A DNA stretch of 43,019 nt from assembly GCF_002007215.1 (NCBI RefSeq), contig NZ_MUHX01000022.1, positions 1-43,019 on the forward strand, given 5' to 3'. This document shows, one piece after another, positions 10,199 to 42,687 of the stretch. The translations under genes were made by a program, and so were the position numbers. Every line of letters starts with the position of its first letter. Positions within the stretch are counted from its first letter, which is position 1. The DNA is from Pyramidobacter sp. C12-8 (GTDB lineage: Bacteria; Synergistota; Synergistia; Synergistales; Dethiosulfovibrionaceae). The notes under the pieces were generated by a model, which was not told the origin of the DNA, ran no database searches, and saw only the letters and a program-made list of their open reading frames with translations.

Positions 10199-10247
10199 GA
10201 TTTTATAAAACGGTGATCGAAAAATTTCATGCGGAGGCGTAAAAACG

Positions 10248-40006: not shown

Positions 40007-40035
40007 TTGACTGACCAATATTGACCATATATAAT
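40007..40035 (+). promoter_or_regulatory. Sigma70-type promoter of clpB
   Basis: -35 TTGACT (40007-40012), 17-bp spacer, -10 TATAAT (40030-40035), near-consensus, 42 bp before the clpB start. Confidence 0.85.
40010..40026 (-). promoter_or_regulatory. CtsR-like heptamer direct repeat in the clpB promoter
   Basis: On the minus strand the site reads GGTCAAT-ATT-GGTCAGT, two heptamers 3 nt apart. This resembles the CtsR operator (GGTCAAA repeated with a 3-nt spacer) that represses clp genes in Firmicutes. It covers the end of the -35 box and the spacer. I see no CIRCE element (the HrcA site). Whether this organism has CtsR is unknown. Confidence 0.5.

Positions 40036-40077: not shown

Positions 40078-42687
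<2,610 letters not shown>

Follow-up and report, generated by a model that had tools for sequence, protein, structure and literature searches.

The clpB promoter of Pyramidobacter sp. C12-8 raises the question of whether the Synergistota, a Gram-negative phylum, use CtsR, a heat-shock repressor known from Gram-positive bacteria. Within the window (the whole stretch of DNA analysed, 43,019 nucleotides of one contig), a tandem repeat resembling a CtsR operator lies over this promoter. The features concerned are the following.

40007..40012, + strand: -35 box TTGACT of the clpB promoter (sequence inspection, promoter comparison)
40010..40016, - strand: second CtsR-type heptamer, GGTCAGT, overlapping the 3'-terminal 3 nt of the -35 box
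40017..40019, - strand: 3-nt spacer ATT between the heptamers (pattern search)
40020..40026, - strand: first CtsR-type heptamer, GGTCAAT (pattern search)
40030..40035, + strand: -10 box TATAAT of the clpB promoter (sequence inspection, promoter comparison)
40078..42687, + strand: clpB, encoding an 869-aa disaggregase (NCBIfam TIGR03346, 1342.7 bits, cut-off 1232.1)

The promoter, TTGACT-17-TATAAT (40007-40035), has a 17-bp spacer and agrees with 11 of 12 consensus bases, confirming the near-consensus promoter of the original prediction. It lies 43 bp 5' of the clpB ATG (40078), which is closely preceded by the Shine-Dalgarno sequence AAAGGAGG. The repeat reads GGTCAAT-ATT-GGTCAGT on the minus strand (40026-40010), with the CtsR heptamer and 3-nt spacing predicted for it. 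It had been placed between the -35 and -10 boxes; it does lie over the promoter, but it overlaps the last three -35 bases and is thus not wholly between the boxes. The published CtsR operator is A/GGTCAAA-NAN-A/GGTCAAA, positioned over the promoter (PMC12634643). The clpB site has this form of tandem heptamers with a 3-nt spacer over a promoter, and departs from the strict consensus at the seventh base (T in both heptamers), the sixth base of the second heptamer (G) and the middle spacer base (T). The degenerate operator pattern RGTCARNNNNRGTCAR matches once in the window, where shuffled sequence gives a mean of 0.05, and its three matches in the genome all lie at proteostasis promoters; the clpB repeat is therefore more than chance.

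These three exact matches in the 2.67-Mb genome fall in the promoters of ctsR-clpC, clpB and smpB-ssrA, and the same three are found in a second assembly of the species. From base composition, about 4.2 genome matches would be expected, at random places. The count is thus unremarkable but the places are remarkable, because two of the three genes had been named beforehand by the CtsR hypothesis. The ctsR promoter site, GGTCAAA-TAT-AGTCAAG, lies 31-46 bp 5' of the ctsR ATG, and in the window's family the ctsR, clpB and smpB promoters have a 17-bp spacer and an operator that overlaps the -35 box. A sequence model of 21 positions, trained on 19 different operator sites from the family, picked out the ctsR, clpB and smpB sites alone at E<=5 in the window's genome; since these belong to its training set, the new information is that nothing else scored. 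Just 5' of the ctsR operator, the ctsR promoter (L001/L022) also carries an inverted pair, GGTCAGA-N6-TCTGACC.

The original prediction proposed a search for the same repeat before clpC, clpP and dnaK. For clpC there is the exact site in the ctsR-clpC promoter, and for dnaK a weaker variant stands in the hrcA(-grpE-dnaK) promoter, whereas clpP of the window's genome has no CtsR site (<=2 mismatches, about 330 bp upstream). CtsR sites at clpP and groES occur in several Firmicutes; in the window's genome groES has no CtsR site either, and both genes were rejected as further targets. Relatives (L105, L108, L109, L111 and others) have further exact matches, of which several, situated inside reading frames or next to unrelated genes, were excluded as targets.

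The regulator itself is present. The genome (182 contigs) holds a single copy of ctsR (C29:7143-7661) with a clpC-like gene directly after it, so that, in place of the negative outcome envisaged at the outset (no ctsR, and no other copies of the motif at heat-shock promoters), the gene and further copies were both found. Profile searches identified the two Pfam domains of CtsR, the N-terminal helix-turn-helix domain PF05848 (3.7e-31, 107.3 bits, cut-off 23.1) and the C-terminal dimerization domain PF17727 (3e-12). NCBIfam gave no match for CtsR and did not name the ClpC-like protein above its cut-off; gene order and N-terminal repeats suggest that the latter is ClpC. Compared with the solved Geobacillus CtsR (3h0d; E 1.9e-24), the helix-turn-helix and wing are almost identical, and the alignment shows that the recognition helix CVPSQINYV..RFT and the wing ESQRGG.GYIRI are retained. 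The protein of the window's genome (L022:7143-7661) also has a 6-residue insertion before the helix-turn-helix, which is complete in none of the 29 other aligned phylum proteins.

CtsR is widespread in the phylum. PF05848 matched in 173 of 185 Synergistota genomes, and in 112 of 115 when the count is restricted to genomes with completeness of 90% or more and contamination of 5% or less; of the 12 among the 185 without a match, 11 are in at least 200 contigs. A public collection of named genomes holds four relatives of the Pyramidobacter CtsR, each from Synergistaceae or Fretibacterium, which places the host in the Synergistota, a possibility that the original prediction had raised. Bacillus subtilis is known for both ctsR and mcsB. 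Our control genome of this species gave no match with PF05848 or PF00217 and matched for SmpB, HrcA and ClpP; it may be a copy without the CtsR/McsB region, or that region may be masked. Both genes are reported for the species (PMC8957991).

Conservation of the repeat was examined by a spacing test, in which about 210-235 bp upstream of ctsR, clpB and smpB were scanned for tandem RGTCAR at spacings 0 to 15 with at most one mismatch. The samples covered 50 of 173 genomes for ctsR (L031 dropped at a contig end), 67 of 144 for clpB (L071, L075 and L085 dropped, having no upstream DNA), 43 of 150 for smpB (8 of the 30 loci returned were left out) and 31 of 61 for hrcA. Genomes were picked by best match and by hand for spread, so the samples are non-random, and related genomes make the counts non-independent. 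With at most one mismatch, the tandem stood at the CtsR spacing in 47 of 50 genomes for ctsR, 43 of 67 for clpB (not found in 24) and 27 of 43 for smpB (not found in 16). Other spacings gave 0-5 for these genes, the exception being 19 clpB tandems at four bases more, where the -35 box and the second heptamer share bases (TTGACTGACC). When RGTCAR was arranged as inverted or everted pairs, the same upstream sets likewise gave 0-5. For hrcA promoters, a tandem with the CtsR spacing was seen in 25 of 31 genomes, and one with any other spacing in 0-3. Almost all of the 25 deviate by one mismatch and have TGTCAA as one half; in the window's genome this half is the -35 box TTGACA read in reverse, and we therefore rate the hrcA target lower. 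Over the pooled 577,587 bases, there were 38 exact tandems with the CtsR spacing, 10 with the overlap spacing and 0-3 with each of the others.

The clpB operator is best kept in the window's family, where 10 of 11 genomes have it exactly and the remaining one with one mismatch; at the same threshold it was not found in the samples from f2 and f10, of three genomes each. In f11, a family outside the window's order, three of four sampled genomes have an exact smpB operator. The clpB upstream regions of G106, G109, G030, G031, G032 and others hold another CtsR-like repeat, on the opposite strand and immediately 3' of the -10 box; a double operator at clpB is therefore possible. In the closely related genomes G107 and G109, the clpB matches (L063, L065) contain one in-frame TAG.

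Taken from sequence, the gene, the operators and the phylum-wide spacing support the CtsR-type reading of the clpB site. We put at about 90% the probability that it is a CtsR operator, with heat-released repression of clpB, ctsR-clpC, smpB-ssrA and probably hrcA-grpE-dnaK; CtsR binding, repression and heat release at these sites are what we infer. At normal temperature, a CtsR dimer would sit on the GGTCARN tandem, across the -35/-10 spacer, and so block RNA polymerase at clpB. Under heat or protein-folding stress CtsR would let go, and clpB would be transcribed. The same repressor would control its own operon, ctsR-clpC, an autoregulation judged from the predicted operator in the ctsR promoter, as well as smpB with the adjoining tmRNA gene, and it probably acts on hrcA-grpE-dnaK together with HrcA.

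A strong sigma-70 promoter (TTGACT -35) joined by an extra TTGACC could produce such a repeat as a chance by-product, and in every repeat one half does fall on the -35 box, wholly or in part. Part of each tandem match is the -35 box itself, for which the spacing control allows: its contribution would be equal at every spacing, yet the second half is confined to a single spacing, and this in four gene families and in different families of the phylum. The spacing test largely refutes this origin, which we regard as extremely improbable. Equally slight is the chance that the site is real and serves a different regulator, for example the CodY-like protein that has been proposed in Synergistetes, with clpB, clpX and clpP among the loci listed for its motif (PMC9318921). 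The motif given there for Pyramidobacter, ATTTTY-N14-AAAAAT, matches the window at 10200 and 29509 and, with at most one mismatch, nowhere near clpB; we rejected a CodY-like site at clpB for want of this AT-rich palindrome. The heptamer repeat, moreover, is the CtsR consensus and lies before ctsR itself.

Control by CtsR leaves the signal to be considered. The original prediction had suggested a search for mcsB, the arginine kinase gene, but PF00217 matched in none of the 14 genomes of the window's family, the window's own included, yet in 55 of 185 genomes of the phylum. These 55 matches show that the search works, and a miss in a single genome proves nothing by itself, as the unmatched Bacillus subtilis control illustrates. 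With no McsB in the family, release would have to come from CtsR itself, through its glycine-rich wing loop, or from the Clp ATPases, and not from arginine phosphorylation. The absence of mcsB would suit a CtsR that binds as proposed and answers to a signal different from heat, such as growth phase or an oxidative or disulfide stress. So would the wing loop, which reads GGHG in Pyramidobacter sp. C12-8, with histidine for one glycine of GGGG, a change through which thermosensing could differ. However, the altered loop is also present in genomes that keep mcsB; among 30 aligned phylum proteins, GGGG occurs only in four from f11. Furthermore, in Bacillus subtilis the glycine-rich loop of CtsR senses heat, and McsB phosphorylates the freed CtsR later (PMC12634643). 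By analogy, this order of events makes a McsB-free CtsR switch mechanistically plausible, and we consider a signal other than heat unlikely.

Within the phylum, mcsB follows ctsR in 15 of 30 ctsR loci and clpC follows directly in the other 15. Inspection by eye of the frame that separates ctsR from mcsB in one mcsB genome showed CxxC motifs in pairs and a coiled, UvrB-like end, which would be expected of McsA, and in all six mcsB loci examined clpC comes after mcsB. A complete Firmicutes-type operon, ctsR-mcsA-mcsB-clpC, thus exists in Synergistota, and the simplest history is that mcsAB was lost from the lineage of the window and from others. A parallel loss of the ClpC phospho-arginine pocket was considered but not adopted: the GTEH motifs, which we take to be the pocket residues, are kept in the window's genome and most sampled genomes, with or without mcsB. 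In two mcsB-less genomes the first motif is EPEH and the second DTEH, and we draw no conclusion on pocket loss.

The third exact site lies within the smpB promoter of the window's genome, TTGACT-17-TAAAAT, and the tmRNA gene begins 34 bp after the smpB stop. Both are on contig C111.

L012:751-768: smpB operator
L012:1314-1631: tmRNA gene behind smpB

A tRNA-Pro gene precedes this locus, and many relatives have a similar layout. The tmRNA gene stands directly behind smpB on the same strand in 23 of 23 smpB loci examined (ARAGORN), which makes read-through from the predicted CtsR-controlled smpB promoter into ssrA likely. We consider it fairly probable that CtsR of Synergistota directly ties ribosome rescue to the Clp regulon, in an old arrangement that operates without McsB in a large part of the phylum; its age is suggested by its presence in the most distant families sampled. 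The accessible open-licence literature on CtsR with SmpB, tmRNA or trans-translation yielded no description of CtsR control of smpB-ssrA. If smpB-ssrA is directly repressed, the tagging of stalled proteins would rise together with the unfoldases that handle damaged proteins.

Lactobacillales are not known to possess McsAB, which resembles the absence of mcsB from the window's family. A comparative reconstruction of their CtsR regulons reports joint HrcA and CtsR control of hrcA-grpE-dnaK, resembling our prediction; unlike it, smpB and ssrA are unmentioned in the main text there, and the phylum is different (PMC3616900). The Firmicutes-type system (PMC8957991) shares the regulator family, the tandem heptamer with 3-nt spacer over the promoter, a clpC operon with its own predicted operator and, in other Synergistota families, the order ctsR-mcsA-mcsB-clpC. 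It differs in that the window's genome has neither mcsB nor a clpP site and in that the predicted targets include clpB and smpB-ssrA. The Clostridium acetobutylicum regulon likewise includes a ctsR-clpC operon, hsp18 and, with weaker CtsR sites, hrcA-grpE-dnaK, but no smpB-ssrA or clpB target was found in its accessible text (PMC3828012).

The kind of system is known, and what is new is its phylum-wide extent, the predicted smpB-ssrA target and the McsB-free branch. The original prediction, that CtsR control extends beyond its usual range, holds for the operator and the regulon, but CtsR-family genes in Synergistetes were already reported, with HrcA regulators, as targets of the CodY-like protein (PMC9318921). 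The accessible text of that paper does not describe CtsR operators in Synergistetes, and we found no report of them for Synergistetes/Synergistota or Gram-negative (diderm) phyla in the literature available. If true, a CtsR regulon that is both conserved and autoregulated throughout a Gram-negative phylum would show that such control is not tied to a Gram-positive envelope or lifestyle. With the same operators, and McsB kept in some families and absent in others, the phylum would offer a natural comparison of McsB-dependent and McsB-free control.

HrcA appears to serve a separate set of genes. The CIRCE element (TTAGCACTC-N9-GAGTGCTAA, <=3 mismatches) occurs three times in the genome, at hrcA, hsp20 and groESL (the latter two named by eye from their sequences), and was not found at clpB in this search. 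Together with a clpP lacking a CtsR site, this points to a division of labour in which HrcA would govern chaperones, and CtsR the Clp unfoldases and ribosome rescue. The hrcA gene is possibly under both regulators, judging from its promoter; such joint control is reported for some lactobacilli and Staphylococcus aureus (PMC3616900). The hsp20 promoter of the window's genome (L233, C19, about 53132-53230) also holds a weak, one-mismatch copy of the repeat, GGTCATG-AAA-GGTCAAA, about 60 bp upstream of CIRCE. In a small-genome relative, an exact CtsR-type repeat (L250, G113:C1:556264-556281) precedes an hsp20-looking gene, and the site in its ctsR promoter is degenerate.
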